Source of the DNA: Candidatus Sulfotelmatobacter sp.
GTDB lineage: Bacteria > Acidobacteriota > Terriglobia > Terriglobales > Acidobacteriaceae
NCBI GenBank assembly: GCA_030041215.1
Contig: JASHOH010000026.1
Coordinates: 1-53,604 of the forward strand
DNA: 53,604 nucleotides
Reading direction: 5' to 3'
Shown: piece by piece, positions 3,101-46,275 of the stretch
Numbering within the stretch: the first letter of the stretch is position 1
Layout: each line of letters begins with the position of its first letter
The notes under the pieces: generated by a model
Told to the model about the DNA's origin: nothing
The model's database searches: none
What the model saw: the letters and a program-made list of their open reading frames with translations, nothing else
Made by a program: the position numbers and the translations under genes

Positions 3101-3193
3101 TGTTGTCGTTAGTCCTTCGTCGTTAGGTGTTCGCAATTCCCGCAAGCTGCCGGCTTCAGTCCGACGACCTGCGGCTAACGACCAACGACAAGT
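3101..3193. repeat. paired heptad-period intergenic arrays between lptE and holA
   Basis: Two arrays with a 7-base period fill most of the gap. The left one (3101-3135) is five units such as GTTAGTC and GTTAGGT. The right one (3159-3193) is five units such as GGCTAAC and GACCAAC. The right words are the reverse complements of the left ones (GTTAGNC against GNCTAAC), so the two arrays are inverted with a 23-base spacer. Nothing coding is apparent. One of a family of such loci in this window. Confidence 0.7.
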
Positions 3194-3199
3194 GCATCT

Positions 3200-4324
3200 A
3201 TGCGCGCCTTTGCCCAAGCTGATCGCTTTGTCAACGAGCTTGTCTCACGCAAGCTGCGGCCGGCTTATGTTTTTGTCGGCGATGAAGCTTTCTTCCGCAA
3301 GCGCTTTCGTGATGCCATTCTCGAACACCTGGTTCCCGCCGATTTACGTGAATTCAGCCTGTTCGAGTTCGATCTTGGGGAAAACGACTTGGCCGAGATT
3401 CTCGACCGTGCCCGCACGCCGTCGCTGATGGCGCCTTTTCAGGTGTTTTTCGTTCGCGGCGTGAAGAATCTTTTTGGCCGCGGCTCGAACGAAGAAAAGC
3501 TGGCTGCGATTGAAGAATATTGCAAGAATCCCAATCCCGATGCGCTTCTTATCTTTGTTGCCGACCACATCAGCATTCCCGCGGATGTGCGCCGGATGGA
3601 GATGCAGGACAAAGACCGCTACCTACGCATCCGCGACACGATGGGCCAATATTGCGGCATCGTTGAACTGGCCCGCGTGGAAGAGGGTGAAGCCGTACGC
3701 TGGGTAACTGATTATTGCACCAGCCGCAACGTAAAAATTGATGCTGATGGCGCCCGCGAACTGGTCGATGCTCTGGGCAGCGACATGATGATGATCTCGA
3801 ACGAGATCGAGAAGCTCATGCTTTATGCCGGCGAGCGGAAGCGCATCACGCTGGGTGACGTGGAAACGATGGTGCTCGCCGCCAAGCAACGCTCGCTTTA
3901 CGAACTGACCGACGCCATTTCGTCTAGAGACCGCGTGCGCTCTTTAGAGGTGCTGGATGCAATTCTCGTCTCGGGCGATGGCGAAGAAGCCGCCATCGGC
4001 CACACCTATATGCTCGCCAAAACTTTCCGGCAGATGCTGGTGATTCTCGAACGTAATGTTCGCGACCAGCGCATGTTGTGGGTCGCGCTCTGGCAGGGGT
4101 TCCGCGTGCCTCCGTTCGCTGCCGACGACATCATCCGGCAGGCTCGCCGTTACAAATCCCGCCGCGATTTGACGCGCGCCATCCGGCTGGTCGCGAAAGC
4201 CGACTTGGCTCTGCGGTCAAATCCAGTGAGCAAGCGCATGGTGCTGGAGCGCCTGGTGATGGATTTAACGACTGAGCCGAAACTGGAAGCGCCGGGATGG
4301 ATGCAAGAACAGTTGCCGGTATAA
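3200..4324 (+). CDS. holA: DNA polymerase III delta subunit
   Basis: Clamp-loader subunit that opens the beta sliding clamp. The 374-residue length is normal for HolA. Recognisable parts are the N-terminal PAYVFVGDEAFFRKR, the ARTPSLMAPFQVFFVRGVKNLF segment, the AAA+-like core with VDALGSDMMMISNEIEKLMLYA, and the helical C-terminal collar domain with RYKSRRDLTRAIRLVAKADLALRSN. No Walker A is present, as expected for delta. The ATG at 3200 is preceded by the intergenic heptad array and has no strong ribosome binding site. It follows lptE on the same strand, an order shared with many proteobacteria. Confidence 0.88.
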   Translation: MRAFAQADRFVNELVSRKLRPAYVFVGDEAFFRKRFRDAILEHLVPADLREFSLFEFDLGENDLAEILDRARTPSLMAPFQVFFVRGVKNLFGRGSNEEKLAAIEEYCKNPNPDALLIFVADHISIPADVRRMEMQDKDRYLRIRDTMGQYCGIVELARVEEGEAVRWVTDYCTSRNVKIDADGARELVDALGSDMMMISNEIEKLMLYAGERKRITLGDVETMVLAAKQRSLYELTDAISSRDRVRSLEVLDAILVSGDGEEAAIGHTYMLAKTFRQMLVILERNVRDQRMLWVALWQGFRVPPFAADDIIRQARRYKSRRDLTRAIRLVAKADLALRSNPVSKRMVLERLVMDLTTEPKLEAPGWMQEQLPV

Positions 4325-4329
4325 AAGGC

Positions 4330-4364
4330 AGCTGTCAGCTATCAGAGGTTAGCTATCAGCAACT
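4330..4364. repeat. heptad-period array after holA
   Basis: Five 7-base units with the core AGCTATC (two exact copies, plus AGCTGTC and weaker ones). A short region with the opposite word (GATAGC) occurs at about 4516-4533, just before the next gene, so the pair brackets the double-hairpin element at 4377-4492. Confidence 0.6.
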
Positions 4365-4376
4365 GGAACCCACCTG

Positions 4377-4492
4377 TCTCATAAATCAATCTTCTCTGGC
4401 TGGCGGGTCTTTTCCTCAGGGCTGAAGCCCGCTTTGTCTTGGCGTGGGACGGCGCGGCTGAAAGCCGCGCCCTTTCAAAACCATTTATGAGA
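4377..4492. repeat. REP/MITE-like element with terminal inverted repeats and two hairpins
   Basis: A 116-base non-coding unit. It starts with TCTCATAAAT (4377-4386) and ends with the exact reverse complement ATTTATGAGA (4483-4492). Inside are two hairpins: a small one at 4419-4430 (arms GGGCT/AGCCC, loop GA) and a strong one at 4451-4471 (9-base arms GGCGCGGCT/AGCCGCGCC, loop GAA), 20 bases apart. The double hairpin recurs at 40516-40570. No open reading frame is inside. It could be a REP sequence mobilised by a RAYT-type transposase, or a MITE; no such transposase is in this window. Confidence 0.65.
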
Positions 4493-4533
4493 TGAGTTCT
4501 TTTTGGTTGCCACTTTGATATCTCAGATAGCAG

Positions 4534-5097
4534 ATGATTTGGTCCTACCTCATCAAAATTCCCTGGCTCGTGTTTGTTAGCTACTGGGTCGTCAGTGCAC
4601 TCAAGACCAGGAGGACGCGGAAGAAAGAGCCCTTCGCGTGGCGCTACGGCGTGATGTTCGTTGAAGTCCTCGGCTTTACACTCCTCTTCAACGGCGACGC
4701 CGATATCGGCCTGCTGGGGCATCGCATTTTCCCTCGCATTTATGCGCTTGGCATCGTGAGCGTCGTTCTCGTCTGGGCTGGCATCGCGCTCGCCGTGTGG
4801 GCCCGCTGGCACCTCGGCGAGTACTGGAGCGGTCGCATCACACTGAAGGAAGGTCACAAGCTCATTCGTACCGGTCCCTACGCGCGGCTGCGACATCCAA
4901 TTTATTCAGGGCTGGATCTGGCCGCGATTGGCTCGGCGCTTGCAATAGACCGCTGGCGATGCGTGGTTGGAGTCTGCGTCATCATTCTCGGCTTTTGGAT
5001 CAAAGCAAAGCGGGAAGAAGCGTTGCTGGCCGGACAATTCGGCGAAGAATTTCAGGAACATCGCCGCCAGACAGGATTTCTGCTTCCCCATTTCTGA
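4534..5097 (+). CDS. isoprenylcysteine carboxyl methyltransferase-family membrane protein
   Basis: A 187-residue integral membrane methyltransferase of the ICMT/phospholipid methyltransferase group. It shows about four hydrophobic segments, then the conserved C-terminal SAM-binding region: HKLIRTGPYARLRHPIYSG (about residues 109-127) and the closing KAKREEALLAGQFGEEFQEHRRQTGFLLPHF-type tail, whose EE and R residues are typical. The bacterial substrate of this family is generally unknown. Bacteria lack prenylated CaaX proteins, so a lipid, quinone or other small hydrophobic substrate is more likely (inference). The ATG at 4534 has no clear ribosome binding site. The next gene starts 12 bases after the stop. 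Confidence 0.82.
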   Translation: MIWSYLIKIPWLVFVSYWVVSALKTRRTRKKEPFAWRYGVMFVEVLGFTLLFNGDADIGLLGHRIFPRIYALGIVSVVLVWAGIALAVWARWHLGEYWSGRITLKEGHKLIRTGPYARLRHPIYSGLDLAAIGSALAIDRWRCVVGVCVIILGFWIKAKREEALLAGQFGEEFQEHRRQTGFLLPHF

Positions 5098-5109
5098 GAG
5101 TCTACATAC

Positions 5110-5862
5110 GTGCTCGATGTAAACGCCTATCTCGCCCGCATCGGCTATCAAGGTCCGACCGCACCCATTCCCGAAACGTTGCGCAGTATTCATCGCGCTC
5201 ACATGATGGCGGTCCCGTTCGAGAACCTTGATATTGCCAGCGGACGCAAGATTGTCATAGCTGAAGAAGCCTTTCTTCGCAAAATTATCGAGCAACGCCG
5301 TGGCGGCTTCTGCTACGAATTGAACGGCGCGTTCGCCGCATTGCTGCGCTCGCTGGGATTTCGTGTCACTTTGCTTTCTGCGCGTGCGGTCGGGAATACA
5401 GGCATCGAGGGTCCCGAGTTCGACCATCTATGCCTGCGCGTCGATCTCGATGAGTCTTGGTTGGCGGACGTCGGTTTCGGCGACTGCTTTCTCGAGCCAC
5501 TGCGCCTTCAACCGGGTGTCGAACAGCCTGACCCTGCGGGAAAATTTCGGATCGCCGCGACAGGGGAACGCTTGCAATTGGAAAAAGCTACGCCTGACGG
5601 CTGGAGGAAACAATACTCATTCACGCTGAAATCACATCAGTTGGCGGAGTTCTCCGGCATGTGCCACTACCATCAGACTTGTCGTGATTCTCCGTTCACG
5701 CAGAAGAGCATTTGCTCGCGCGCTACTGAAGATGGGCGAATTACCGTGGCCGACATGAAGCTGATTGCTACCAGAAATGGGGTGCGGTCCGAAACAGTGC
5801 TAATGTCCAAAGAAGAGAGAAACGCTGCGCTGCGAGAACACTTTGGAATTATTCTGCAGTGA
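5110..5862 (+). CDS. nat: arylamine N-acetyltransferase
   Basis: Cytosolic enzyme that moves an acetyl group from acetyl-CoA to arylamines or hydrazines. The 250-residue length and the Cys-His-Asp triad fit the family: Cys68 in RGGFCYELNG, His106 in FDHLCLRV and Asp120 in WLADVGFGD. The N-terminal MMAVPFENLD segment is also typical. The start is GTG at 5110, 12 bases after the methyltransferase stop; an operon with that gene is likely. The physiological substrate cannot be told from sequence. It is convergent with rpsT. Confidence 0.93.
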   Translation: MLDVNAYLARIGYQGPTAPIPETLRSIHRAHMMAVPFENLDIASGRKIVIAEEAFLRKIIEQRRGGFCYELNGAFAALLRSLGFRVTLLSARAVGNTGIEGPEFDHLCLRVDLDESWLADVGFGDCFLEPLRLQPGVEQPDPAGKFRIAATGERLQLEKATPDGWRKQYSFTLKSHQLAEFSGMCHYHQTCRDSPFTQKSICSRATEDGRITVADMKLIATRNGVRSETVLMSKEERNAALREHFGIILQ

Positions 5863-5929
5863 AACAATGGGCAGACGTCGAAACGGCTATCATTTCATGT
5901 GACGCGTCAGCTCGAAGCTCTGTGCTACT

Positions 5930-6187
5930 TCATCGCGCCAACACGCGCCCGAGCCGCGACTTATAGCGCGACGCCGTATTCTCGTGTAGCGTTCCCTTCT
6001 GGATGGCCTTGTCGAGCGCGGAAACGGTTTGCCGGTAGGTCTGCTCGGCGGCTTGCTTGTCGCCTTTTGCAATGGCCTCGCGCATGGTTCTTAAAACCGT
6101 GCGCAGGCGGGAGGTATTGGCGCGGTTTCGCGCCGCACGTCGCGTAGTTTGCCGGGCGCGCTTGAGCGCCGAAAAATGATTCGCCAT
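5930..6187 (-). CDS. rpsT: 30S ribosomal protein S20
   Basis: Primary 16S rRNA-binding protein of the small subunit. The 85 residues show the S20 pattern: [23 protein letters not shown] at the N terminus, strongly basic helices, and [22 protein letters not shown]-like closing helix. The ATG at 6187 is the only sensible start. It stands alone on the minus strand, convergent with nat. About 270 bases separate it from the divergent phoH, where its promoter should lie; no clear -35/-10 pair was identified there. Confidence 0.95.
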
Positions 6188-6455
6188 GGGTGGTTTTAAC
6201 CTTGTGTCTACAGCAGAATATTCGGGTGAGTACCGAAGACATTATTCTACGGGAATAACTCTTGGCTGGTCAAACAGTTGCCATGCCATTGACTCCCGTA
6301 CTGGCCCGCGCTACGCTTTTATTTAATGGTAGTGATTTGCCCTCCGGGCATTAGCATTCCGGCTGATTCCGTCTCCCAGCCTAATCCTGTCCTGCTCGCA
6401 ATGTTCCGTCCCTACATCGCCATCCGTCGCCACGGTTTTCCACCGAAGAGATTGA

Positions 6456-7502
6456 ATGAAGAAAAGCATCGGGATTAGTCCCAATATCGAAACTTTATTC
6501 GGCACCCGCGACGAAAATGTGCGTGTGCTTGAAGACGGGCTCAACATCAACATCGACCTGCGATCCAACTCTATCGAACTAGAGGGCGCTGCTCGCGATG
6601 TCGCCCGCGCCGAGCAGGTGTTCGCCGATTACGAAAGCCTACAGCGCTCTGGATACAGCTTCAACAACGGCGATCTCAATAGCATGCTGCGAGTGCTCAC
6701 CGCCGATTCCACTGCTACCTTGCGTGGATTGGCCGATGCCGGCCGCCAGCGTTCTCTGGGACGCCGCATGGTGCAGCCTAAGAGCATCAATCAAAGGCGG
6801 TATCTCGAAGCGATTGAAAAGCACGATATGGTTTTCGGCATCGGTCCTGCAGGCACGGGCAAAACTTATCTCGCTGTTGCCATGGCGATTTCCGCACTGC
6901 TCGCAAAGCGCGTAAATCGCATCATCCTGGCGCGACCCGCTGTCGAAGCCGGCGAGCGGCTTGGATTTCTGCCTGGCACATTGCAAGACAAAATCGATCC
7001 TTATCTTCGCCCGCTGTACGACGCGCTCTATGACATGCTCGATCCCGAGAAGGTCGATCGTTACCTCGAAAAAAACGTGATCGAAATTGCACCGATCGCC
7101 TTTATGCGCGGGCGCACGTTAAATGATTCGTTTGTGATTCTCGACGAAGCGCAGAACACGACTTCCGAACAGATGAAGATGTTCGTTACCCGGCTTGGAT
7201 TCAACTCTAAAGCGGTAATCACCGGCGACATCACGCAGATCGACCTCCCTAATGCGCGCCGCAGCGGATTGCTAGAAGCCATTGACGTCCTGGGCAGCGT
7301 CGAAGGCCTCACCTTCGTTCATTTCGACGAGACCGACGTGGTTCGCCATTATCTGGTGCAGCGCATTATCCGCGCCTACGATGAACATAAAGCGCATGTC
7401 GCAGAACAGCAGATGCTATTGCTTTCCGGCGGAAAAAGTAGCGAATCCAGGGATTCCGCAGTGGGAAATTCTGAAGAATCCAAACCAGCCAAGGGAGAAT
7501 AA
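6456..7502 (+). CDS. phoH: PhoH-family ATPase (YbeZ type)
   Basis: Cytosolic P-loop ATPase linked to ribosome and RNA quality control together with YbeY. The 348-residue protein has an N-terminal KH-like part (residues 1-60), Walker A GPAGTGKT (130-137), the [16 protein letters not shown] motif and Walker [13 protein letters not shown], followed by [10 protein letters not shown]. All are hallmarks of PhoH/YbeZ. The C-terminal tail from about residue 325 is low complexity. ATG 6456 is preceded by GAAGAG. It is followed by ybeY, CorC-like and era genes, the usual order of this cluster. Confidence 0.93.
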
Positions 7503-7584
7503 GGCCACGTATTTACCAGGGCCGTGTAAGTCACCGTTCATTTGGCAAAACGTGTTTATCTAATCGCAAGATGGCGGGCATAAG

Positions 7585-8064
7585 GTGATCATCTTCCGCA
7601 AGAGAGTCGCCAGCTTGGATCCAGCATCGCTCGAACGATTTGTTTCGCGCGCGCGGCGGGCGCTCAGGCTGCGCGGATCGGTGAATGTGCTGGTCACAAG
7701 CAGCAGGGAAGTGCGTACTCTCAATCGTGATTTTCGCAAAGTCGATAGGCCGACGGATGTCTTATCGTTTCCGTCCGCCGTACTGCCCGGAAATCGTGTG
7801 CCCAGCATGGCGGGAGAAATCGTTCTCTCAGCCGACATCGCGCGTCAGAATGCGGCCCGCCTCGGCCACCCGGTCGCTAATGAAATCAAAATCCTGGCTC
7901 TGCATGGATTGCTGCATATAGCTGGCTACGACCACGAACGCGATTACGGCCAGATGGCCGCCATCGAAAAACGACTGCGGCTGCAACTAAAATTGGAAAC
8001 GGGCCTTATTGAGCGCGCGCAGGCGCACAACAGGCCGTTCACGACGAGGCAGAGATCGGCATGA
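7585..8064 (+). CDS. ybeY: endoribonuclease YbeY
   Basis: Zinc-dependent single-strand endoribonuclease for 16S rRNA 3'-end maturation and ribosome quality control. The 159-residue protein carries the zinc site HGLLHIAGYDH with His107, His111 and His117, preceded by RPTDVLSFP and GEIVLSADIA, all diagnostic. The only possible start in frame is GTG 7585, because a stop codon lies eight codons upstream. The C terminus overlaps the next gene by ATGA. It follows phoH by 82 bases, which matches the known YbeZ-YbeY partnership. Confidence 0.93.
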   Translation: MIIFRKRVASLDPASLERFVSRARRALRLRGSVNVLVTSSREVRTLNRDFRKVDRPTDVLSFPSAVLPGNRVPSMAGEIVLSADIARQNAARLGHPVANEIKILALHGLLHIAGYDHERDYGQMAAIEKRLRLQLKLETGLIERAQAHNRPFTTRQRSA

Positions 8065-9326
8065 ACTGGTACGTCGCCATTCCGCTGGTTCCGTTGCTGG
8101 CTCTGCTGGCGCTGACCTCCTATGTAGACCGGGTCTACCAGGAGATCGGCAAATTTCTCTCGCGCGATTTCCAGAACAACATCGACGTGTTCGAGCAGAA
8201 AGTCGAACCCAACCTGCACGTTAGCCGCGCCCGCGCGTCCCTCTCGATGGCGGTGCTGAAGCAGTTGATCACGGCGACCATTGCCATGCTCGTGGGTTTT
8301 GCCGTATTTGCCGATCAGCGCTGGAGCGTCTATGAAATATTGCAGGCCGCGCTCAGTCTGATTTTGATCGTCATCATCTTCAACCAGTTTCTTCCCTATG
8401 TTTTCTTCTCGCGGACGAAAGGTGTCTGGCTAATTCGTTGGACTTGGCTTCTGAAGCTGCTGATTTATCTTGTCCTGCCCGTGACAATCGTTCTCGGCTT
8501 TCTGCAATCGGTGGTGTCTCTGACCCGCCAAAACACCCCTGAGGAACCGGAAACAGCCGCCGAAGCCGTTGATGCCTTGATCGAAGCGGGGCAGGAAGAA
8601 GGCATCATTCAGGAAGGGGACCGCGACCTCATTCAGTCGGTCGTCGAATTCAGCGGCAAAACCGTTCGCGAAGCTATGAAGCCGCGTCCGGATATGTTTG
8701 CCGTGCCCGTCTCGACCACCGTCGAGCGATTTATTCAGATGCTTGGCGAGAAGCATTTTTCGCGCGTGCCTGTGTATGAAGGTAGCATTCACAACATCAA
8801 GGGCATTGTGTATGCGCAGGATGTCCTCCAGGTCCCAGACAGCGAAGCGCCTACCCGCACTCTTGATTCTCTGATGCGGCGCGATGTTTACTTCGTGCCC
8901 GAAAGTAAGCTGGGCAGCGATCTTTTGCGCGAGATGCAGAAGAACAACATCCGCATGGCCATCGTCGTCGATGAGTACGGCGGAGTCGCTGGTCTGGTAA
9001 CGATCGAAGATCTGGTGGAGGAAATTGTCGGCGAAATTCGCGACGAGCATGAAAAGCCAGAGGTGGTGCGCGAGAACGATCACTCATACGTTGTTCCCGG
9101 CGGCATGGATGTAGATCGCCTGACAGAACTATTTGGGACGAAGCCCGAAGGCAGAGAATCCGCCACCGTTGCCGGCCTGGTCAGCGAGCTTGCCGGACAC
9201 ATTCCTCAGCGTGGCGAAACCGTTGATGACGACGGCCTGCGCTTCGAAGTGCTGGAGTCCACCGATCGCCGAGTTGAACGCGTTCGCATCAGCGCCCTAC
9301 AGCAGAGACAGTTGAAGCTGATATAG
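8061..9326 (+). CDS. CorC/HlyC-family membrane protein (CNNM, CBS pair, CorC domain)
   Basis: Inner-membrane protein of the haemolysin C/CorC group, thought to take part in magnesium or cobalt efflux. Order of parts in the 421 residues: a DUF21/CNNM membrane region with about four hydrophobic segments (1-155), a linker rich in Glu ([17 protein letters not shown]), two CBS domains (about 205-330, with [11 protein letters not shown] and [26 protein letters not shown]), and a C-terminal CorC/HlyC transporter-associated domain (about 345-415). It is coupled to ybeY by an ATGA overlap. In E. coli corC also neighbours ybeZ-ybeY. The transported ion is not predictable. Confidence 0.88.
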
Positions 9327-9379
9327 TTTGTGCTCGTCTATCGGGCTTCCTTCTGCTGAGACGCCCTCGATTCAAAAAA

Positions 9380-9400
9380 ACACAGAGGGCACAGAGTAAA
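9380..9400. repeat. ACACAGAGG nonamer patch
   Basis: Two 9-base units, ACACAGAGG and GCACAGAGT, in the gap between the CorC-like gene and era. A second patch of the same word with three units lies at 49853-49881. Non-coding. Confidence 0.6.
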
Positions 9401-9423
9401 ACAATCAGAGCATCGCTAATAAA

Positions 9424-9479
9424 CCGAAAGCTGAAGCCTGGAACCCAAAAGCGCCTGATAACCGAAGCCTGAAAGCCGA
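9424..9479. repeat. heptad-period array before era
   Basis: Eight consecutive 7-base units with related words such as CTGAAGC, CTGGAAC and AGCCTGA, ending three bases before the era start codon. No inverted partner was found. Same family as the arrays at 3101, 18726, 37201 and 46195. Confidence 0.6.
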
Positions 9480-9482
9480 TCT

Positions 9483-10451: not shown

Positions 10452-10518
10452 CTAACTCCGGGTTTGTGGTTCCGGGCTTTTGCCGCTAGAATCATTCGGA
10501 TCGAGCCTTAACGTGCCC

Positions 10519-10971: not shown

Positions 10972-10989
10972 GCCGCCGCTTTCGGCGCT

Positions 10990-15773: not shown

Positions 15774-15799
15774 TGTGCGAAATAGGTCATTGGTGGTTT

Positions 15800-15834
15800 G
15801 TCGCTGGTCGTTAATTGTTGGCGGTTAGCGGTCG
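15800..15834. repeat. heptad-period array
   Basis: Five 7-base units such as GTCGCTG, GTCGTTA and GCGGTTA in the gap between the xylanase start and the DNA glycosylase stop. No clear inverted partner nearby. Non-coding. Confidence 0.55.
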
Positions 15835-18725: not shown

Positions 18726-18767
18726 ACGTAGGAGCTAAGAGCTAACAGCTAGGAGCTAAAAGCCAGG
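18726..18767. repeat. heptad-period array between pilB and pilT
   Basis: Six 7-base units, the clearest of the family: AGCTAAG, AGCTAAC and close variants, ending in AGCCAGG. It fills most of the 62-base pilB-pilT gap and stops 14 bases before the pilT start. All units are in one orientation. Confidence 0.7.
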
Positions 18768-19953: not shown

Positions 19954-20031
19954 GAATCCAGAAAGCGAGAATGCAGAAGTGACGACAAGGGATTTGCTTC
20001 TGCATTCCGACTTCGAGCTTCTGTATTGCGA
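19954..20031. repeat. paired heptad arrays forming an 11-bp hairpin between pilT and pilC
   Basis: The left array (19954-19981) has units such as GAATCCA and AGAATGC; the right array (19997-20031) has CTTCTGC, ATTCCGA and CTTCTGT. Within them GAATGCAGAAG (19969-19979) and CTTCTGCATTC (19997-20007) are exact complements around a 17-base loop. It lies inside the pil operon, 21 bases before the pilC start, so it would be transcribed; no T-run follows, so it is not a typical terminator. Confidence 0.65.
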
Positions 20032-26312: not shown

Positions 26313-26352
26313 ATTTTCCTCGCGCCCAAATGTAGTTGTCCCAAAAGGCAGG

Positions 26353-26385
26353 TTTCAAAGTTTCAAAGACCTTGAGACTTTGAAA
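26353..26385. repeat. TTTCAAAG direct and inverted repeats
   Basis: Two tandem copies of TTTCAAAG (26353-26360, 26361-26368) followed by the reverse complement CTTTGAAA (26378-26385). It sits 41 bases upstream of the SAM hydrolase start codon, in its likely promoter or leader. Unit length here is 8, unlike the heptad arrays. Confidence 0.5.
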
Positions 26386-26505
26386 TAGTGAAAGCCTTGA
26401 GATCGAAAGTAAATTGGTATCCTCGGGAGAGTCAAGGCACTGCGGTAATACAGATTTTCCTGCCCCGAGAGCGCCTCGGCTTTCGCGCCTTTCTAAGGGT
26501 GGGGA

Positions 26506-34990: not shown

Positions 34991-35005
34991 TGTTCCTGTT
35001 GGGAT

Positions 35006-35923: not shown

Positions 35924-35948
35924 GCAGGTTAGTTAGATTCTTGCCGGC

Positions 35949-37196
35949 TCAGCTTGGCTTCACGACCGCGGGCAAGCACTCAACGATTTCCGCATCGCTC
36001 AACGTGTGGTCGCTGGCTTTGGCACGCTGGTAAATGCGCTCGACCACTTCCTCGCTCGCGGGGATGCCACGCCGCTCCAGCCAGAAGAGCACATTCGATT
36101 TGCCGCTCATCGGGCCGATATCGATGATCTGCTCCAGCCCAAATTCGTGCGAGGGCACGCCGGAATAGACCGTGTTAGCGAGAATCACGTCATTTTTGCG
36201 ATAGGCTTTGATGATGGCCGCCGCATGTACGCCAGTCGCCGTGCGGAACGCATCGTCACCGACAACAGGATAATTTGCCGGGATCGGCACGCCGGTTGCT
36301 CGCGAAACAGCAACACAATATTGTTTGAGCTTGGTGAGGTCCTGTTTGTCCCATGGTGCAATTCCCATCAGCTTCAGATTCACCAGCATCTGATCGATCT
36401 GCGTATTGCCCACGCGCTCGCCCAGACCGATCGCGCATGCATGAACACAGTTTGCGCCGCCGATTACCGCCGCCATTGAATTCGCAATCGCGAGACCGCG
36501 GTCGCTGTGGCCGTGCCAGTCGACACGAATTTTCTCGCCTGACGGTTTCACGACCTCTTCCATCACAAATCGTACCAGCGCCAGCGCACCCATCGGTGTG
36601 GCGTGGCCGGCGGTGTCGCAAACCACTATGGCGCGTGCGCCGCAATTGATCGCGGTCGAATAGAGGCGCTTCACGGTTTCCGGATCGCAGCGGCTGGTGT
36701 CTTCAGTAACATACATGACGTCGAGACCGAGTGAAACGGCATACGTTACGGCCTTTTCTGTCGTCTTAAGAAGGAAGTGGTCGGTCCAGCCTTCAGTGAA
36801 GCGGCGAATTGGACTTGAACCGATGAACGTTGCCGCCTCGATGGGCAGTCCGGTCTTCTGCACAATCTCAGCGATCGGACGGATGTCGTTTTCGTGCGTG
36901 CGGGCCGCGCAATTGGCTTTGATCTTCAGCTTGTTGTCCGCGATCTCACGTGCAAGAGCGGTCGCGTGCTCGACCGCGCGGGCGCCGGCGCCAGGCAATC
37001 CTAGATCGAGCGAGTCAATTCCCAAAGATTCCATCAAATGAACAATTTCAATTTTTTCGCCGATGGAAGGATCGCGCACCGAGGGCGACTGCAAGCCGTC
37101 GCGCAAGCTCTCGTCATTAAGCAGCACCGGGCCCGGCGGCTTCAATCCCGGAGGATGGTTCTTGTTCCAGTCGTAGATGAGGTCGGAGGTGTTCAT
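35949..37196 (-). CDS. LeuA/HMG-lyase-type DRE-TIM metallolyase
   Basis: A 415-residue TIM-barrel enzyme of the pyruvate-carboxyltransferase-like group. The DRE-like motif is NDESLRDGLQSP (27-38; Arg32-Asp33), the metal His pair is in DWHGHSDRGLAIAN, and the GLGERVGNTQID and TGVHAAAI segments match the Claisen-condensing subgroup (isopropylmalate, homocitrate or citramalate synthases) and not HMG-CoA lyase. The LeuA regulatory C-terminal domain is absent. The acyl acceptor is unknown. It is the first gene before panE, which may hint at branched 2-oxoacid metabolism (inference). Confidence 0.8.
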   Translation of the reverse strand: MNTSDLIYDWNKNHPPGLKPPGPVLLNDESLRDGLQSPSVRDPSIGEKIEIVHLMESLGIDSLDLGLPGAGARAVEHATALAREIADNKLKIKANCAARTHENDIRPIAEIVQKTGLPIEAATFIGSSPIRRFTEGWTDHFLLKTTEKAVTYAVSLGLDVMYVTEDTSRCDPETVKRLYSTAINCGARAIVVCDTAGHATPMGALALVRFVMEEVVKPSGEKIRVDWHGHSDRGLAIANSMAAVIGGANCVHACAIGLGERVGNTQIDQMLVNLKLMGIAPWDKQDLTKLKQYCVAVSRATGVPIPANYPVVGDDAFRTATGVHAAAIIKAYRKNDVILANTVYSGVPSHEFGLEQIIDIGPMSGKSNVLFWLERRGIPASEEVVERIYQRAKASDHTLSDAEIVECLPAVVKPS

Positions 37197-37200
37197 GAGT

Positions 37201-37338
37201 GAGCTTCAAGCTGCGAGCTTTGAGCTACGAGCAAGCAGACTCGGCGAAGTTCGTGCTTTCGCTTATTACCCACAGTTGTTTCACAGCGTACTGCGCCGTG
37301 ATCGCTCAAAGCTCGCCGCTCGTAGCTCGCAGCTCACT
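37201..37338. repeat. paired heptad arrays reaching a stop codon
   Basis: Left array 37201-37235: five units such as GAGCTTC, AAGCTGC and GAGCTAC. Right array 37304-37338: five units such as GCTCGCC, GCTCGTA and GCTCGCA. The right words are reverse complements of the left ones (GAGCT against AGCTC) across a 68-base spacer. The right array covers the stop codon of the zinc-ribbon gene at 37334. Confidence 0.75.
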
Positions 37339-37672: not shown

Positions 37673-37846
37673 AGGATTTGTCCCTCGTTCGTGCGGCTCC
37701 TGCCGCCGGATTCACGGCTTACGAACGTAATTGTACTCGATGCCAAAAGCCCCGGCCAAAGCCGTCAATGTCGTATGCTACCCGTGCACAGCACGAATGC
37801 CGCGGTTTTCCCGTAGGCTAATTTCAAAACCGAAAATGAGTTTTGC

Positions 37847-38371: not shown

Positions 38372-38382
38372 ACCGGGGCGGC

Positions 38383-38871
38383 CTAGAACTCCTTCTTCGG
38401 AGCCGCCTGATCGGCACCCACGCGGCCAATCGTTATCTCGGCCTTGTAATAATTTTCCGCTTTGATCGGCTCGCCCGCAAAACGGCGTAGGATGGCGATT
38501 TGGCCGATGTGCGTGAGAGCATCGGCCACCGGCCCCTGAAATAAATTCTCAATCGGAGCCTGCAACGGCTGGCTCGATGCCAGATAGTCATCGAAATTCT
38601 TCAGTGATGCGAAGAAGCGCTCGACCTCTTTCTCCCAGTGCAGCGGCTTGGAGTCGTGCCACTCGCGTTTGCCGTTGGCCATGGAAAGTCCCCAATCCAT
38701 GAGATCGCCAATGTGAGCGAGAATTTGTCCGGGCGTGCGCACGCCCTCATCGGCATGAAACATGGAAAATCCTTCGGGAGCATTGCGGACAGCCTTGCCT
38801 CCGCGATAGGCAATCGTTGCAAGCGTGTGGCGCAAAAGTTGGCGCTTGGGATCGGAATTGGAATCGGCCAT
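38383..38871 (-). CDS. DinB-family protein
   Basis: A 162-residue four-helix-bundle protein of the DinB/YfiT group. The first metal His is in GQILAHIGDLMDW and the last in ADALTHIGQIAILRRFAG; the second would be in the SKPLHWEKEVERFF region. Members include thiol S-transferases and proteins of unknown activity. It starts at ATG 38871 and lies 34 bases downstream of the aldehyde dehydrogenase stop on the same strand, so the two are probably cotranscribed. Confidence 0.82.
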   Translation of the reverse strand: MADSNSDPKRQLLRHTLATIAYRGGKAVRNAPEGFSMFHADEGVRTPGQILAHIGDLMDWGLSMANGKREWHDSKPLHWEKEVERFFASLKNFDDYLASSQPLQAPIENLFQGPVADALTHIGQIAILRRFAGEPIKAENYYKAEITIGRVGADQAAPKKEF

Positions 38872-38905
38872 AATTCTCTCTCGGGACTCTGGGGTTCGGA
38901 ACTAG

Positions 38906-40477: not shown

Positions 40478-40515
40478 GTAACGAACAAAAATTGAGACCA
40501 GCCCTGAAGACCGGA

Positions 40516-40570
40516 GGGGCTAAAGCCCCAATAGAAAAAGATCGCTCAATCGCAGCGCTAAAGCGCTGCG
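40516..40570. repeat. REP-like double hairpin, second copy
   Basis: Small hairpin 40516-40529 (GGGGCT/AGCCCC, loop AA) and strong hairpin 40551-40570 (9-base arms CGCAGCGCT/AGCGCTGCG, loop AA), 21 bases apart. Arm lengths, spacing and order match the element at 4419-4471. The stems differ in sequence, as expected for compensatory drift. It lies between truA and the aldehyde dehydrogenase gene. Confidence 0.65.
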
Positions 40571-40619
40571 CCACCTAAAGCTAACTGTGGCACGATGACT
40601 ACGTGCCCTCTATACGAAT

Positions 40620-41369
40620 CTAATATTCGACATTCACTAAATACAATCCACTGGCGGGAACGGTTGCTCCTGCCGCTGAACGGTTGTGCGCTTCGAGTAT
40701 GCGCGTAATGTCTTCGGCGCGCAGGGTTGCTTTGCCCACGAGAATAAGTGTTCCCACCAGATTTCTCACCATATGGTGCAGGAACCCCGATCCCTTCACG
40801 GTATATATAAATTCATCCCCCTCCCGGTCCCACGCGGAAGAAAAGATCGTCCGCACATTCGACAGCGGCGGGTCTTTTTCCCGCTCAGGGTCAACCGCTG
40901 CAAAGGAAGTGAAATCGTGCTCACCCCGCACGCGCTCTGCCGCGTCGATCATCGCCCCTTCATCCAGCGGATAAGGATAATGCCACACGTAACGTGCAAG
41001 AAACGGCGGGCAGATGTCTCGCCGATATATGCGATAGCGATAAGTCTTAGCCCGCGCCGATTTGCGGGCATGGAAATCAGGCGCGGCCTCTTCAACATCG
41101 AGAGCGCGAACGGACGCCGGCAAAATATCGTTCAGCGCTTTTCCAAAGTTTGCTGTGGGAATGGTAGACTCCGTGGCAAATGTCACCACCTGTGCCAATG
41201 CATGCACGCCTGCGTCGGTGCGCCCTGAGGCCTGTGGCAATACCTTTTCGCCGGTGATTCGTCCAATGGCTGAGGCAAGTGTGCCCTGCACGGTGACGGC
41301 ATCGGGTTGCACTTGCCATCCTACGAAATCCGATCCGTCATAGGACAGAATCAGTTTGAGATTACGCAT
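40620..41369 (-). CDS. truA: tRNA pseudouridine(38-40) synthase
   Basis: Converts U38-U40 of the tRNA anticodon arm to pseudouridine. The 249-residue protein has the catalytic Asp52 in SGRTDAGVHALAQ, the KTYRYRIYRRD motif and the C-terminal GSGFLHHMVRNLVGTLILVGK, all typical of TruA. The start is ATG 41369 (MRNLKLILSYDGSDF), the family's usual N terminus; a longer frame adds 13 unlikely residues. It is divergent from the first TolC-like gene. Confidence 0.93.
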   Translation of the reverse strand: MRNLKLILSYDGSDFVGWQVQPDAVTVQGTLASAIGRITGEKVLPQASGRTDAGVHALAQVVTFATESTIPTANFGKALNDILPASVRALDVEEAAPDFHARKSARAKTYRYRIYRRDICPPFLARYVWHYPYPLDEGAMIDAAERVRGEHDFTSFAAVDPEREKDPPLSNVRTIFSSAWDREGDEFIYTVKGSGFLHHMVRNLVGTLILVGKATLRAEDITRILEAHNRSAAGATVPASGLYLVNVEY

Positions 41370-41678
41370 GATGATCTTTCGAGTCCGGCGGTCGGTCTGG
41401 TAATGCAAATCATTTCACGCGGGCGCGGTTTTCGGCCAGTTCCTCGGGGATCTCCAGAGGCAGCGGTTTTCGCAGGACAGAAACAATTTCCTGGGCAAGA
41501 AATCGTCAACAAAGGAGTGCTCGCATTGTCAGATATACTGAGCGGTACTTTTAGCACATTCTTGGAACCCGGACACCGCCAGTTGCGTATGTACAGGTGA
41601 ATAATTTTCTTTGGCATTCCAGGCTTTTCGAACCCGATTTTTTCAGTTGCAAAGCATTAAATCAATGGAGATGAGTAG
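41370..41678. other. divergent intergenic region between truA and the first TolC-like gene
   Basis: 309 bases that must hold both promoters. An imperfect -35/-10 pair (TTGTCA, 17 bases, TTTTAG near 41527-41555) might serve the plus strand but is weak. GGAGATGAG before 41679 is the ribosome binding site. No gene supported. Confidence 0.45.
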
Positions 41679-43742
41679 ATGCGATTCGTACGTTTCCTCT
41701 GTCTGCATACAATCTTTTTAGTCACGGCGCTGAGCGTCACTGCATGGACGCAGGAGCCGCCCACTGCTCCCGTTCCGCAAAACACGCGGGAAACGCAACC
41801 GCTGCCGGTGCAGAATTTTGCCCAGCCGGTTTCGCACTTTCCCAACCCCATTGCTCCCTACCAGCCGCGGTATTTGCCACCGCCGAATCTGGCTAACACG
41901 CCGCGTATTGATACGTTGATCCGCGATGGAAAACTCTACTTGTCGCTGAATGATGCTATCGCCCTCGCGCTGGAGAACAATCTCGATATCTCGATCGCGC
42001 GTTACAACCTGAATATTGCGGATACCGACGTTCTGCGCGCCAAGGCCGGTGCCAGCATTCTAGGCGTGAACGCTGGCGTTGTTCAGAACACCCCCGGCGG
42101 AGGCATCGGCGGCATTGGTGCAACTGCCGGCCTGTCGTCGGGCGGCACCAGTCTGGGAGCTGGTGGAATTGGCGCCGGTACGAACGGATTAGTGAGTTCT
42201 ACGCTGGGCTTTGGACCGCCGATCACCAGTTTCGACCCGGTTCTCACCGGAACTTTGCAGGAGGATCATTTGAGCCAAACCGCTACCACCATTTTTCAAG
42301 GCGTATTTCCGGGCAGTACGGTGGCCCAGAACACTGGCACGGTGGATTTCGCCTACAGCCAGGGATTCCATTGGGGCATGAATTTACAAGTAGGGTTCAA
42401 TAACCAGCGGCAAACTACCAACAGTTTCTTTACAAGTGTAAGCCCAGCTCTGAATTCCAACTTCAGGGCTACAGTGACCCAACCCATATTGCAGGGTTTC
42501 GGATTTCCTGCCATTACGCGTTTCATCCGCATCGCGAAAAATAACCGCGAGCTCACCGATGTCGCCTTTCGCCTGCAAATCATCGACTCCGTCGATCAAA
42601 TTGAAAACATTTACTGGGATCTGGTCTACGGCTATGAGAACGCGCGGGTGCAAAACGAGAACTTGGCCTTCGCCCAGAAAACGCTTTCGGATACCAAGAA
42701 GCAGGTCGAGATTGGCAGCCTTGCTCCGATCGAGGTGGTAAGGGCGCAGAGTACTGTAGCTCAAGATCAACAGTTGGTAACGCAGGCGCAGACCAATCTT
42801 CAGTTGGAGCAACTGCTGATGAAGAATGCGCTGACGCGCACTCTTAAAGATCCTACGCTGGCTACGGCAGAAGTGATTCCGACGTCGACGATGGATATTC
42901 CTGCGCAGGAAGAAGTTGTGCCCACCGAAGACCTGATCAATGAGGCGCTTCGCCATCGCGCCGAGCTTGTTGAGTCGCGCATTGATTTGAACAGCCGCGA
43001 CATGAGCAATAAGGCAGTACGGGGCGCATTGTTGCCAACCCTCAACCTCTACGCCTACTACGGCGGCGTGGGAATCGGCGGCGCACAAAATCCTCACAAT
43101 GAATGTATTAACCTGCCGCAGGAGCTACAGGTGTTCGGCTGCGCCGGCACCAGTCCGAGCGAGCTGCCGCTGTTTGCCACGACCCCCATCGGAGCCACGC
43201 TCAACCAGCTAGTCAACTCCACGAACCCGGACAAAGGCGTGGGACTTTCTCTGAACATTCCTTTGCGTAATCGTGCGGCCCAGGCCGTACAGATTCGTTC
43301 GGAGCTCGAATACCGCCAGGCGCAGATGCGCCTGCAGCAGATCGAAAACCAGGTGGGTATCGAAGTCCGCAACGCGCAGTACGCGGTGCAGCAGAACCGC
43401 GCCAGCGTGGACTCGGCGCGGGCCGCAGTCGAACTTGGCCGCCAGTCGTTGGATGCCGAGCAGAAGAAATATCAGTTCGGCACTTCGACCAACACGCTGG
43501 TGCTGCAATACCAGAGCCAGCTGGCTACGGCCGAATCAACGCTGGTCAATGCCCAGGTAGCATATGAAAAGTCGCGGCTTGAGCTCGACCGCGCCACGGG
43601 CCAGTTGCTTGATCACTTCGGCATCAGCATCGATGACGCTGTGCGGGGGCAGGTCACGCACATGCCTAACGTGCCGTTTATCAAGCAGCGCATGGATACG
43701 CCATCGGTGGCGCAACCCGCGCTGCAGGGCGCGCAGCAATAG
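41679..43742 (+). CDS. TolC-family outer-membrane channel protein, copy 1
   Basis: A 687-residue outer-membrane efflux protein with a signal peptide (about 1-24, ending AWTQ). After a Pro/Gln-rich stretch comes the first outer-membrane-efflux repeat (KLYLSLNDAIALALENNLDISIARYNLNIADTD, about 86-118). A Gly-rich insert (about 130-180) and a variable region follow, then the long coiled coils (FRLQIIDSVDQIENIYWDLVYGYENARVQNE and the second half with LEYRQAQMRLQQIENQVGIEVRNAQYAVQQN). It would be the exit duct of a tripartite pump or type I system, but no inner-membrane or adaptor gene is adjacent. It is followed by a close paralogue. Confidence 0.88.
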   Translation: MRFVRFLCLHTIFLVTALSVTAWTQEPPTAPVPQNTRETQPLPVQNFAQPVSHFPNPIAPYQPRYLPPPNLANTPRIDTLIRDGKLYLSLNDAIALALENNLDISIARYNLNIADTDVLRAKAGASILGVNAGVVQNTPGGGIGGIGATAGLSSGGTSLGAGGIGAGTNGLVSSTLGFGPPITSFDPVLTGTLQEDHLSQTATTIFQGVFPGSTVAQNTGTVDFAYSQGFHWGMNLQVGFNNQRQTTNSFFTSVSPALNSNFRATVTQPILQGFGFPAITRFIRIAKNNRELTDVAFRLQIIDSVDQIENIYWDLVYGYENARVQNENLAFAQKTLSDTKKQVEIGSLAPIEVVRAQSTVAQDQQLVTQAQTNLQLEQLLMKNALTRTLKDPTLATAEVIPTSTMDIPAQEEVVPTEDLINEALRHRAELVESRIDLNSRDMSNKAVRGALLPTLNLYAYYGGVGIGGAQNPHNECINLPQELQVFGCAGTSPSELPLFATTPIGATLNQLVNSTNPDKGVGLSLNIPLRNRAAQAVQIRSELEYRQAQMRLQQIENQVGIEVRNAQYAVQQNRASVDSARAAVELGRQSLDAEQKKYQFGTSTNTLVLQYQSQLATAESTLVNAQVAYEKSRLELDRATGQLLDHFGISIDDAVRGQVTHMPNVPFIKQRMDTPSVAQPALQGAQQ

Positions 43743-44041
43743 ATACCGCTGGACTTCAGGCGTCCCTCTTTGGATGGAATGGCAGCCCCAGCGCTGGCAA
43801 GCTGAGGTGCGTCTGCTGGAGCTCTGGAGCTGCCATTGGATGCTCTGGGCAAAGACTCAAGCCTCGGTCCTATACGCGAACAATTCTTTACAATCCCTTT
43901 CCCGTCGTTCCCGTCCTTATATCGCTAAGATGAAGTAACGGTCTTATTCTGAGCGCATCCAAAGTCTTTCCAAATTCGTCAGGGCTGGTTTCTGGCACTG
44001 AGCGATTTTGTGCTCGATTTTTGCATTGGAGGAGACGAACT
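43743..44041. other. intergenic region between the two TolC-like genes
   Basis: 299 bases with no supported gene. It ends with GGAGGAG (44028-44034), the ribosome binding site that fixes the next start. No terminator with a T-run was recognised, so read-through from copy 1 to copy 2 is possible. Confidence 0.5.
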
Positions 44042-46156
44042 ATGTCTTTGATGTTCTTCCGTGAGATGGCAAACGCGCGGCATCGGATTAGCATGTTGCC
44101 CGCCTTGGCAGCCCTCGCGTGTGTGCTGCCCACGCCCCGGTCAATTGCACAAGCGACTCCAGCAACGCCCGCGCCGCAGACTGCGTCGGCACCCGCGCAG
44201 GCGGTTCATTTACAGGATTATTCCAAGCCGAGATCGGCCTTCCCGCATTTCCTGCAGCCCTACCAGCCGCAGGAAATTCCCCAGCCCAATCTCAGCAATT
44301 CGCCTCGTGTCGATTCGCTGATGCATGACGGCAAGATTTATCTTTCTATCGACGATGCCGTTGCTCTCGCGCTGGAAAATAATCTCGACATTGATATTGC
44401 CCGTTATAACCTCAACATTGCCGACACTGACTACCTGCGTGCAAAGTCTGGAGCGAATATTCTCGGCGTTAATGCAGGCATTGTGCAAAATACTCCCGGG
44501 AGTGGTGTAGGCGGGCTGGGAGGGACGGTTGGCTCAGGCACCGGAGGCACGAGCGTGGCGGCCGCCGGCGTAGCGACGGGAACAAATGGATTGGTCAGTT
44601 CGACCCTCGGAATCGGATCAACGATCACCAGCTTTGACCCCATCATCACTAGCACGTTGCAGCTTGATAAAAACAATACCGAATCAGTAAGCATATTGAG
44701 CCCTGTGCCTGTCGTCGCAGAGAACACTTACACCGCAAATTTCTCTTACACTCAAGGTTTCGATTGGGGAGGCGCTTTAACGGTAGGTTTCAACAATACT
44801 CATGCAACTACTAACAATCCAACGAATCTTTTGAGCCCCGAGCTGAGCTCAAACTTTCAAGCTAGGTTCACGCAAAATCTGCTACAGGGATTCGGCGCTC
44901 TGCCCAACACGCGTTTTATCCGTATCGCGAAAAACAATCGCGAGATCTCCGACGTTGCCTTCCGCCTGCAAATCATTACTACCGTCGATCAGATCGAAAA
45001 TATGTATTGGGACCTCGTCTACGCATACGAGAACGTGCGCGTGCAACAGGAAGCGCTTACCTACGCGCAAAAGGCCCTGGAAGACTCGAAGAAGCAGGCG
45101 CAAGTCGGGACGGCTCCGCCCATTCAGGTCGTCAGTTCACAGAGCACGGTCGCGACCGATCAGCAAAACTTGATTGTTGCTCAGAATAACCTTGAGTTGC
45201 AGGAACTGCTCGTGAAGAACGCGCTCAGCCGCAGCATCGAAGATCCCATACTGGCGGAAGCTGATGTGATACCGACATCGGTGATGGCAATTCCGCAGCA
45301 AGAACCCGTGGTTCCAACGCAAGACCTGATCAGTCAGGCCCTTGGTCACCGCGCCGAACTCGTGGAGTCGCGCATCGATCTGAATTCGCGAGATCTCAGC
45401 GCCAAGGCGGTGCGAAACGCCATGCTGCCCACGCTCGATGCGTTTGCGTACTACGGAGGATCGGGAATAGGGGGCAACATCAATCCGACAGTGCCCAACT
45501 GTACGACCGGAGCCAAGTATTGCTACACTCCGGTCACCAATCCCCCGCCGTTCCAGACCGCGACTAGCGTTGGCTATGGCGGAACCCTGAACCAGCTTGT
45601 GAACTCCACGGCGCCCGATAAAGGTGTCGGCCTTACGCTGAATATTCCGCTGCGCAATCGCGAAGCACAGGCGAATCAAGTCCGCGCCGAGCTCGAATAC
45701 CGCCAGGCGCAGGTGCGCTTGCACCAGCTTGAGAATCAGGTGCGCATCGAGGTGCGCAACGCGCAATTTGACGTAAAGCAGAACCGGGTGGCAGTGGAAG
45801 CAGCGCAATCCGCCGTTGACTTCGCCCGCCAGACGTTTGATGCCGATCAGCAGAAATTAAAGGTAGGACTCACCATAATAAGCGCGGTCTTGCAGGATGC
45901 CTCAACTCTGACCACGGCTGAATCCAACCTGGTGTCGGCCAAAGCAGCATATGAAAAATCGCGCATTGAACTTGATCGTGCCACCGGATTGCTACTCGAC
46001 CATTCCAACATTGATGTCGCGGAAGCCACGCGTGGCCAAGTCACGCATCTCCCGCAGGTGCCCTATGTTGCGCCGCGGCAGGATGTGACGCCCCAGAGCC
46101 AGCCGAATCAAACGCCTCAGGGCGCGCCTCCGCACCAGGCGGGAGGTCAGATGTGA
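44042..46156 (+). CDS. TolC-family outer-membrane channel protein, copy 2
   Basis: A 704-residue paralogue of the preceding gene, in tandem with it. Long stretches match, for example DGKIYLSIDDAVALALENN, ARYNLNIADTDYLRAK, FIRIAKNNRE, DVAFRLQI and HRAELVESRIDLNSRD. It has a signal peptide (about 15-38, ending SIAQA), an Ala/Pro/Gln-rich segment, a Gly-rich insert (about 150-190) and both efflux repeats; the C terminus is Gln/Pro-rich. ATG 44042 is chosen because GGAGGAG lies seven bases upstream; an earlier in-frame TTG at 44021 would be buried in that region. No pump partner genes are nearby. Confidence 0.88.
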   Translation: MSLMFFREMANARHRISMLPALAALACVLPTPRSIAQATPATPAPQTASAPAQAVHLQDYSKPRSAFPHFLQPYQPQEIPQPNLSNSPRVDSLMHDGKIYLSIDDAVALALENNLDIDIARYNLNIADTDYLRAKSGANILGVNAGIVQNTPGSGVGGLGGTVGSGTGGTSVAAAGVATGTNGLVSSTLGIGSTITSFDPIITSTLQLDKNNTESVSILSPVPVVAENTYTANFSYTQGFDWGGALTVGFNNTHATTNNPTNLLSPELSSNFQARFTQNLLQGFGALPNTRFIRIAKNNREISDVAFRLQIITTVDQIENMYWDLVYAYENVRVQQEALTYAQKALEDSKKQAQVGTAPPIQVVSSQSTVATDQQNLIVAQNNLELQELLVKNALSRSIEDPILAEADVIPTSVMAIPQQEPVVPTQDLISQALGHRAELVESRIDLNSRDLSAKAVRNAMLPTLDAFAYYGGSGIGGNINPTVPNCTTGAKYCYTPVTNPPPFQTATSVGYGGTLNQLVNSTAPDKGVGLTLNIPLRNREAQANQVRAELEYRQAQVRLHQLENQVRIEVRNAQFDVKQNRVAVEAAQSAVDFARQTFDADQQKLKVGLTIISAVLQDASTLTTAESNLVSAKAAYEKSRIELDRATGLLLDHSNIDVAEATRGQVTHLPQVPYVAPRQDVTPQSQPNQTPQGAPPHQAGGQM

Positions 46157-46194
46157 GCGCATTGTCGGCCTAATTGGACGTATCAGGCAAAACA

Positions 46195-46275
46195 TTGTTG
46201 ATTTCTCTTTGTTGATTGATGATTGAAAAGCTGTTGAGCGGAAACGACAATCGGCAATCAACAATCGCTCAATTC
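46195..46275. repeat. paired heptad arrays before the glycosyltransferase
   Basis: Left array 46195-46229 with units such as TTGTTGA and TTGATGA; right array 46248-46275 with CAATCGG, CAATCAA and CAATCGC. The words are mutual reverse complements (TTGATTG against CAATCAA) with an 18-base spacer. The right array ends three bases before the start codon at 46279. Confidence 0.7.

Follow-up and report, generated by a model that had tools for sequence, protein, structure and literature searches.

Spacers of soil Acidobacteria that keep a 7-nt repeat length and a hairpin while their sequence words change

The DNA considered here (the window) spans 53,604 nucleotides (nt), positions 1 to 53,604 of contig JASHOH010000026.1 in assembly GCA_030041215.1, a 5.03-Mb draft genome (G000) of 'Candidatus Sulfotelmatobacter' sp. 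The closest PilT proteins among named genomes (five, 94–96%) come from 'Candidatus Sulfotelmatobacter' metagenome-assembled genomes (MAGs), phylum Acidobacteriota. Family searches identified lptE and holA, a CorC-like gene and era, pilB-pilT-pilC, and an OEP-family gene with a glycosyltransferase gene (the PilC and CorC matches lie below their family cut-offs), and it is the gaps beside such genes that concern us, because they hold short tandem arrays of degenerate 7-nt units (heptads), several of which face a complementary array and thereby form a potential hairpin.

A first-pass annotation had reported arrays of strict 7-base period in eight gene gaps, four of them with two arrays in opposite orientation. 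The 7-base observation is confirmed and proves larger than claimed. All eight intervals exceed shuffles of their own letters at lag 7 (5000 mononucleotide shuffles each; p 0.0002 to 0.003), with lag-7 matches of 42–69% against a whole-window mean of 24.7%. The hairpin score exceeds that of shuffles (300 each) at the intervals beginning at 3101, 19954, 37201 and 46195 (p 0.003–0.007), which bears out the four opposed pairs; it is marginal at 4330 (p 0.03), and no hairpin stands out from shuffles within the intervals at 9424, 15800 and 18726 (p 1.0, 0.39 and 0.21). The word 'strict' has to be relaxed: although the lag-7 excess is real, an 8-nt class exists as well, and the units are imperfect (about 5.4 of 7 bases alike, as measured in the ribosomal-protein operon). 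Tandem Repeats Finder (minimum score 30) reports period 7 or 14 at only four of the eight sites (3101, 9453, 18732 and 37201/37310), which again marks the units as degenerate. Likewise, the arrays do lie outside genes, but 'between co-directed genes' describes them better than 'intergenic', since all eight sites, by our own gene calls, separate genes on the same strand. Features are collected in Table 1.

Table 1. Heptad and octad arrays in the window.
Position	Strand	Feature	Context and measures
3103..3122	+	Left arm, GTTGTCGTTAGTCCTTCGTC type, GTCGTTN word	Between lptE-like gene (ends 3094) and holA (starts 3200); hairpin score 12, p 0.003; lag-7 p 0.0002; RNA fold z -1.5
3172..3191	+	Right arm, complementary to 3103..3122	Shares hairpin with 3103..3122
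4330..4364	+	Degenerate heptad array, AGCTATC/AGAGGTT-like units	Follows holA, whose stop is at 4324; lag-7 p 0.0002; hairpin p 0.03
9424..9479	+	Weak degenerate heptad array without inverted partner	CorC-like gene/era gap; lag-7 p 0.003; hairpin p 1.0; array score <9
15782..15832	-	Degenerate heptad array, GTCGTTN-like units on +	Minus-strand gap; score 12; 15800-15834 holds no hairpin (p 0.39)
18729..18763	+	Single purine-rich array, AGCTAAG/AGCTAGG units	pilB/pilT gap, ends 18 nt before pilT; score 16
19969..19979	+	Left arm, purine-rich arm first	pilT-pilC gap hairpin; hairpin score 11, p 0.003; lag-7 p 0.0004
19997..20007	+	Complementary right arm	pilT-pilC gap; RNA fold z -2.0
26352..26393	.	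8-nt array, GTTTCAAA units (octad class)	Absent from the first-pass annotation; score 12 at lag 8
37201..37225	-	Arm of long heptad hairpin	Adjoins HMGL-like gene 35949-37196 (-); hairpin score 19, p 0.003; RNA fold z -4.2
37304..37328	-	Arm complementary to 37201..37225	Shares hairpin with 37201..37225
46209..46225	+	Left arm, TTGTTGA/TTGATGA units	Between OEP-family gene and GT2 glycosyltransferase gene; hairpin score 13, p 0.007; RNA fold z only -0.2
46248..46264	+	Right arm, complementary to 46209..46225, CAATCGG/CAATCAA units	Shares hairpin with 46209..46225

The pattern extends well beyond the window. In a 744-kb sample of the genome (the window plus 40 stretches; 173 kb intergenic; 77% called coding by our own gene caller, whose starts are approximate), lag-7 segments scoring at least 10, runs of N included, number 76 in intergenic DNA versus 1 after dinucleotide shuffling, and 11 versus 11 in coding DNA; the intergenic excess is thus present, as had been expected, and the repeats are not equally common inside genes. 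With N excluded and a score of at least 11, the counts at lag 7 are 73 intergenic and 8 coding. Intergenic segments are also in excess at lag 14 (58 versus 0 in the shuffle) and lag 21 (34 versus 0), and lag 8 forms a second class (21 versus 3). This tandem 7-nt excess, located mainly outside genes, places the arrays with the heptanucleotide tandem repeats of bacteria (STRR/LSSR) in the broad sense. Among other genomes, mostly drafts or MAGs and one per species, 34 loci of named relatives with PilT at 84–96% hold 58 lag-7 segments versus 2 in 82 kb of intergenic DNA, and more distant Acidobacteriota hold 24 versus 0, from 6 of 46 loci (single-letter block shuffles in both cases). Of 247 genomes of the phylum, 44 had matches in a scan for four AGCT heptads. 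Four TCGA heptads, the reversed pattern used as a control, gave counts of 145 in G265, 51 in G137, 25 in G195, 22 in G106 and 18 in G069; other families favour another palindromic core.

Arrays in the window's genome occupy 46 of 302 same-strand gaps, 3 of 65 convergent and 6 of 78 divergent gaps (p 0.008), and this same-strand excess is largely carried by the ribosomal-protein operon, in which arrays are densest. That operon holds them in 14 of 25 spacers (those of at least 30 nt) versus 32 of 279 other same-strand gaps; the figures are 11/28 versus 4/155 in G170 and 17/28 versus 27/109 in G154, where the operon counts cover all 28 spacers at a score of at least 9 and the rest of the genome gaps of at least 30 nt at a score of at least 10. 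Outside the operon, G154 retains the excess (27/109 same-strand gaps versus 4/59 others, p 0.0035; its stretch 1–300000 overlaps the operon locus by about 1.6 kb). Gene pairs flanking arrays show slightly higher codon adaptation in the window's genome (p 0.027) and in G154 (p 0.017), and no rise in G170 (p 0.38, 3 gaps); array-flanking genes include what we take, from gene order or sequence, to be groES-groEL, fusA-tuf, rpsL-rpsG, rplU-rpmA and nuoK-L-M.

The operon of the window's genome (locus L041, contig C120) runs from rpsJ to rpoA; NCBIfam confirms 10 of its 30 genes, and the remaining 20 are presumed from order or sequence. Ribosomal-protein operons are usually compact. Here, the median spacer is 86 nt in 23 genomes of the genus (551 spacers) versus 15 nt in 12 outgroup genomes (304 spacers), and heptad arrays occur in about half of the genus spacers that reach 20 nt: 241 of 461 carry a lag-7 array and 50 a lag-8 array (1 and 1 in shuffles), whereas lags 4–6 and 9–12 are found in only 0–4. 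A hairpin score of at least 12 is reached in 195 of the same 461 spacers versus 2 in shuffles, a count that includes 8-nt and a few non-tandem hairpins. Typically, an array and its complement, separated by a loop, lie between stop and start codon, with about 4 nt on the stop side and about 15 nt on the start side; the medians for 265 tandem hairpins of all lineages are 4 nt from stop to stem and 15 nt from stem to start. The arrays are strongly concentrated in the ribosomal-protein operon, just behind the stop and near the start. The two unit lengths differ in polarity: the pyrimidine-rich arm comes first in 127 of 143 genus hairpins of 7-nt units (purine-rich first in 16) and in 11 of 38 of 8-nt units (purine-rich first in 27). 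It is well supported that the elements are hairpins between genes of one operon, with arms that are degenerate tandem arrays of a single 7-nt (or 8-nt) word and that fill much of the stretch from stop to start.

Further words recur in the same operon elsewhere, with lag-7 arrays in 7–17 spacers each in five genomes of the same family (G047, G110, G154, G170 and G202) and five of other families (G149, G180, G212, G274 and G265); there are arrays in 0–3 spacers in G162, G280, G075 and G256, and none in the operons of G221, G173, G139, G101, G137 and G106. Three genomes of family f25 (G173, G139 and G221; loci L213, L214 and L212) have 26, 12 and 19 AGCT-heptad matches per genome and ribosomal spacers with a median of 9 nt and no array, so arrays as such and their loading onto the ribosomal operon are separable.

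What is conserved at a given spacer is the period and the hairpin, not the sequence. The first-pass annotation had noted that the period stays while the word differs from locus to locus, and this holds between species too: the 286 arrays at 22 orthologous spacers in 22 genomes of one genus cluster into 20 seven-nt and 9 eight-nt word classes. On a tree of the 22 genomes (quickly made, with one branch at support 30), these classes require at least 121 changes over the 22 spacers, against 121.9 with shuffled labels, so the classes carry no phylogenetic signal at the depth of this tree: a species' relatives do not tell which of the classes present at a spacer it has. Counting absence as a state raises the changes to 201, a figure inflated because absence then includes arrays scoring below 9. 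Pair counts of words, as of loops, unit similarities and registers below, are not independent. The share of close word pairs at the same spacer in different genomes climbs with gene identity, from 0.16 to 0.40 at up to 0.9, and is 0.33 in the top bin (27 pairs); it is 0.144 within a genome and 0.117 otherwise. Words go with the locus, and a single genome-wide word is rejected. Turnover, gain and loss at fixed positions are rapid. Between species pairs with ribosomal genes 86–95% alike, the rplR-rpsE spacer has a heptad array in L172 and an octad array in L178, and L175 has an octad hairpin behind rplX that L162 lacks. At the window's own loci, the pilB-pilT gap holds a heptad array in 10 of 37 genomes, with several different words, the pilT-pilC gap in 1 of 37 and the corC-era gap in 3 of 9, a measure by which the window itself counts only at pilB-pilT.

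Within an element, units are as alike between arms (5.47 of 7) as within an arm (5.43 of 7; ribosomal operon), and mismatches in the stem repeat with a 7-nt spacing (0.35 at lag 7, 0.12–0.17 at lags 1–6). Loops are alike in 24% of 176 pairs that share both spacer and word and in 2–4% where only one is shared, so that a new word usually means a new element; same-word elements at different loci rarely share loops. The rplX-rplE spacer behaves otherwise: in ten genomes chosen for their layout, both arms change together among AGCTNTT, AGCTNCT and GGCTNTT, with mixed word states in L168 and L177, while a homologous linker and leader persist (identity 0.62–0.79 against 0.44–0.51 shuffled; 7 chosen pairs). 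In many genus genomes (e.g. L162, L175 and L168), this spacer has a conserved leader, TCTCACG..CGTGAGA, before rplE, which in some encloses the right heptad array and may be an older regulatory hairpin.

Were individual pairs kept by RNA pairing, G.U mismatches would be expected to be commoner than A.C mismatches, an expectation of textbook knowledge on which the power of the test rests. The arms of 291 hairpins have 322 G.U and 324 A.C mismatches, and the core columns 73 and 78 (a control on the acceptor stems of 17 tRNAs gave 3 versus 1, too few to use). The mismatches thus lack RNA-strand bias and are symmetric between the DNA strands, which argues against selection on single RNA pairs but not against a looser need for some hairpin. 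Predicted RNA folds have z-scores of -3.6 and -4.3 for two ribosomal-operon spacers and of -4.2, -2.0, -1.5 and -0.2 for four window spacers.

The explanation that we favour, although we hold it at less than even confidence, is hairpin formation and slipped mispairing of DNA in spacers that are transcribed but not translated, with the products tolerated through their folding. Spacers free of ribosomes would let single-stranded DNA fold, putatively in an R-loop or as a hairpin on the lagging strand. When DNA is replicated or repaired, slipped and snap-back mispairing would build inverted arrays whose step of about 7–8 nt would be dictated by the machinery, and correction between mispaired units, in very short tracts, would keep the units of a locus alike, so that each locus would drift as one word. 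The arrays would be tolerated, and maybe used, because a folded mRNA spacer leaves stop and start codons only a few nt apart. The restriction to two lags, the load on the ribosomal operon, the codon adaptation of flanking genes, the equal likeness between and within arms, the joint change of arms at rplX-rplE, the unshared loops and the missing strand bias all fit this account. Several results weigh against it. Outside the ribosomal operon, the same-strand excess falls to 32/279 versus 9/143 (p 0.12) in the window's genome and is missing in G170 (4/155 versus 3/86). The operons of the same-family genomes G280, G075 and G256 (L204, L205 and L207) have median spacers of 84–88 nt with arrays in only 2, 3 and 0 of them, and that of G101 has 49-nt spacers with none, so long spacers must have other causes besides arrays. 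Neighbouring units are no more alike than other pairs (-0.05 +- 0.03 of 7), and the order of units in one arm stands at random rank relative to the other (0.503 +- 0.030; 94 loci), so whole-unit copying has no support, long-tract copying between arms (quasipalindrome correction) is rejected, and the mechanism 'that copies period and not sequence' of the first-pass annotation, whose interpretation is partly supported, lacks support as worded. Unit marks nevertheless tend to stay in register between orthologues with different words (mean rank 0.65 for 413 pairs that are not independent; by spacer from 0.33 to 0.86, with 0.86 at rplX-rplE and values near 0.5 at several spacers), which indicates column-wise, in-place change at some loci, and the two columns that vary most lie side by side in 117 of 212 arrays where one-third is expected, which plain mutation with correction does not predict.

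The main rival, ranked second and possible though doubtful, is a selected RNA device: a putative intercistronic hairpin that couples translation by bringing the start next to the preceding stop, so that the terminating ribosome would restart without a Shine–Dalgarno (SD) sequence and any word would serve, in several registers, as long as the arms pair. The placement of hairpins from stop to start and the load on the ribosomal operon agree with it, as does the predicted path from stop to start, which is 9 nt in spacers with a hairpin, 18 nt after shuffling and 19 nt in the remaining long spacers (n = 71 and 67); a short path, however, follows from having a hairpin at all. Coupling is nearly abolished at 20–38 nt in Escherichia coli and Haloferax (PMC10666635). 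An SD core precedes 37% of 83 starts with a hairpin end within 12 nt, whereas the figure is 95% for overlapping starts (60) and 79% for starts behind other long spacers (159); a gene-matched comparison gives 24 of 71 with a hairpin versus 46 of 75 (p 0.001). Single-array starts have one in 46% of 105 cases, but so do only 50% of 46 short spacers without arrays, and some genes lack one with or without a hairpin. Shuffling the left arm somewhat lowers pairing in the region from -15 to +3 (in 48 of 70). Geometry and the shortage of SD cores are both indirect signs of coupling. Against the device stand the missing G.U excess and a screen, cited in PMC12548453, in which predicted structure just behind the stop correlated negatively with coupling. 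Ordinary slippage alone, its step set by the footprint of DNA polymerase (the explanation of bacterial heptads by Mrazek 2007, as cited in passages of PMC4679880 and PMC4692102), would account for lags of only 7 and 8 and for words nearly arbitrary across families, yet it makes no inverted partners, disagrees with the persistent unit marks and the uneven spread over gap types, and is insufficient as sole cause because the arms are paired and neighbouring units are no more alike; we consider it unlikely. Still a little less credible are several families of mobile palindromic elements (REP/MITE-like) that insert behind stops and replace one another. Presence and absence with class replacement at fixed sites, word classes that recur at many loci and six Y1 transposase genes in the genome suggest them, but same-word loops within one genome are alike in just 4% of 68 pairs, words are not genome-wide, no array scoring at least 10 lies in the six Y1_Tnp loci of about 3 kb, and the change at rplX-rplE is in place; recent mobile copies are rejected, the loops being unshared and the transposase loci bare. 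Repeated sites of a putative DNA- or RNA-binding protein would fit the core block with its adjacent variable columns and the limited word set within one genome, but words differ among the spacers of one operon in one genome and among relatives, which leaves no single shared site and makes this account very improbable. A bolder combination, rather unlikely overall, is a lineage-wide, word-free translation bridge, in which slippery 7-nt hairpins would have taken over the ribosomal spacers and would replace SD sites by holding each start against the preceding stop, while homogenization at the DNA level would enforce period and self-complementarity but not sequence, each spacer keeping a private, drifting word.

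The closest known cases are the heptad stem of the Nostoc trnL intron and the TAACTGA repeats of Beggiatoaceae. Passages of PMC4476775 describe the P6b stem-loop of the Nostoc trnL (UAA) group I intron as built of heptads, TDNGATT or NNTGAGT, with repeated replacement of one class by another. The likeness is close: a stem of 7-nt repeats with free positions, in which one class replaces another in place, and arms of complementary heptads are what the 195 spacers above contain. The P6b description, as far as those passages go, concerns one intron site and two classes, whereas here there are many spacers, 29 classes in one genus, 8-nt units and another phylum; these arrays lie between protein genes, with no Rfam match in the window or in the array spacers of six ribosomal-operon loci. 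TAACTGA direct repeats are reported for Beggiatoaceae, Cyanobacteria and Bacteroidetes, and translational regulation is proposed for those near starts (MacGregor 2015, PMC4679880, in the sections covered). They, too, lie mostly just upstream of starts, often without a ribosome-binding site and in some cases in ribosomal-protein operons, and the low SD frequencies given above match them, with the reservation of the array-free short spacers. They differ in having one fixed word and a single inverted case in 170 sets in the same sections, whereas the arms here are usually paired, the operon is much denser and one operon in 22 genomes has 20 + 9 word classes. The GGGAATC/GGGGATT heptads of Xanthomonas and Nostoc (PMC4692102) share the position between mostly co-directed genes and the variation between relatives; they consist of one G-rich word with quadruplex potential, and the passages covered describe no inverted partner. 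The statement that no description was known for the group holds, in that none was found for Acidobacteria in a search that most subscription journals lay outside.

REP, BIME and REPIN elements, tied to RAYT transposases, are extragenic palindromes that also occur between genes, but as dispersed, near-identical copies. The hairpins here share neither loops nor words within a genome, and none of the six Y1_Tnp loci of about 3 kb has an array beside the transposase gene.

The constant repeat length and hairpin with changing letters point to a poorly understood process acting on the gene spacers of a group of soil Acidobacteria. Period, word and structure, which are usually met together, are separated here, and hundreds of replicate loci could reveal the origin of the 7-nt step, which many bacterial repeats share and which is still unexplained. 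Hairpins that couple translation would do so independently of sequence; otherwise, the loci illustrate the extent to which essential operons can be reshaped by mutation.

Other kinds of element in or near these spacers were considered as well. An SD supplied by the purine-rich arm is rejected, since its duplex energy is no better than that of shuffled sequence (-3.67 versus -4.08). In a look at rRNA spacers as transcribed but untranslated DNA, no 16S end turned up in sets of 26 and 23 genomes. Intrinsic terminators, GC-rich hairpins with a T run behind them, are not in excess (27 terminator-like sites in L041 versus 24.7 +- 6.3 shuffled, for loops of up to 8 nt), and no known RNA family in Rfam matches the window or the array spacers of the six ribosomal-operon loci. 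The long ribosomal spacers of G280, G075 and G256 are filled by something other than heptad arrays. Another dispersed palindromic element, a GGCGTC-type stem followed by a ATCCTGAGCG...GAAGGATCT stretch, stands directly behind the stops in the rpsJ-rplC, rplV-rpsC, rplX-rplE, rplF-rplR and rpsD-rpoA spacers of L041, and the 301-nt rplB-rpsS spacer of the same locus (about 3480–3782) apparently has a small extra open reading frame before its heptad array. Near the ribosomal operon in L171 (1042–1088, minus strand) lies an unrelated Acido-Lenti-1 RNA (RF01687, 48.9 bits), the one match in the six loci.

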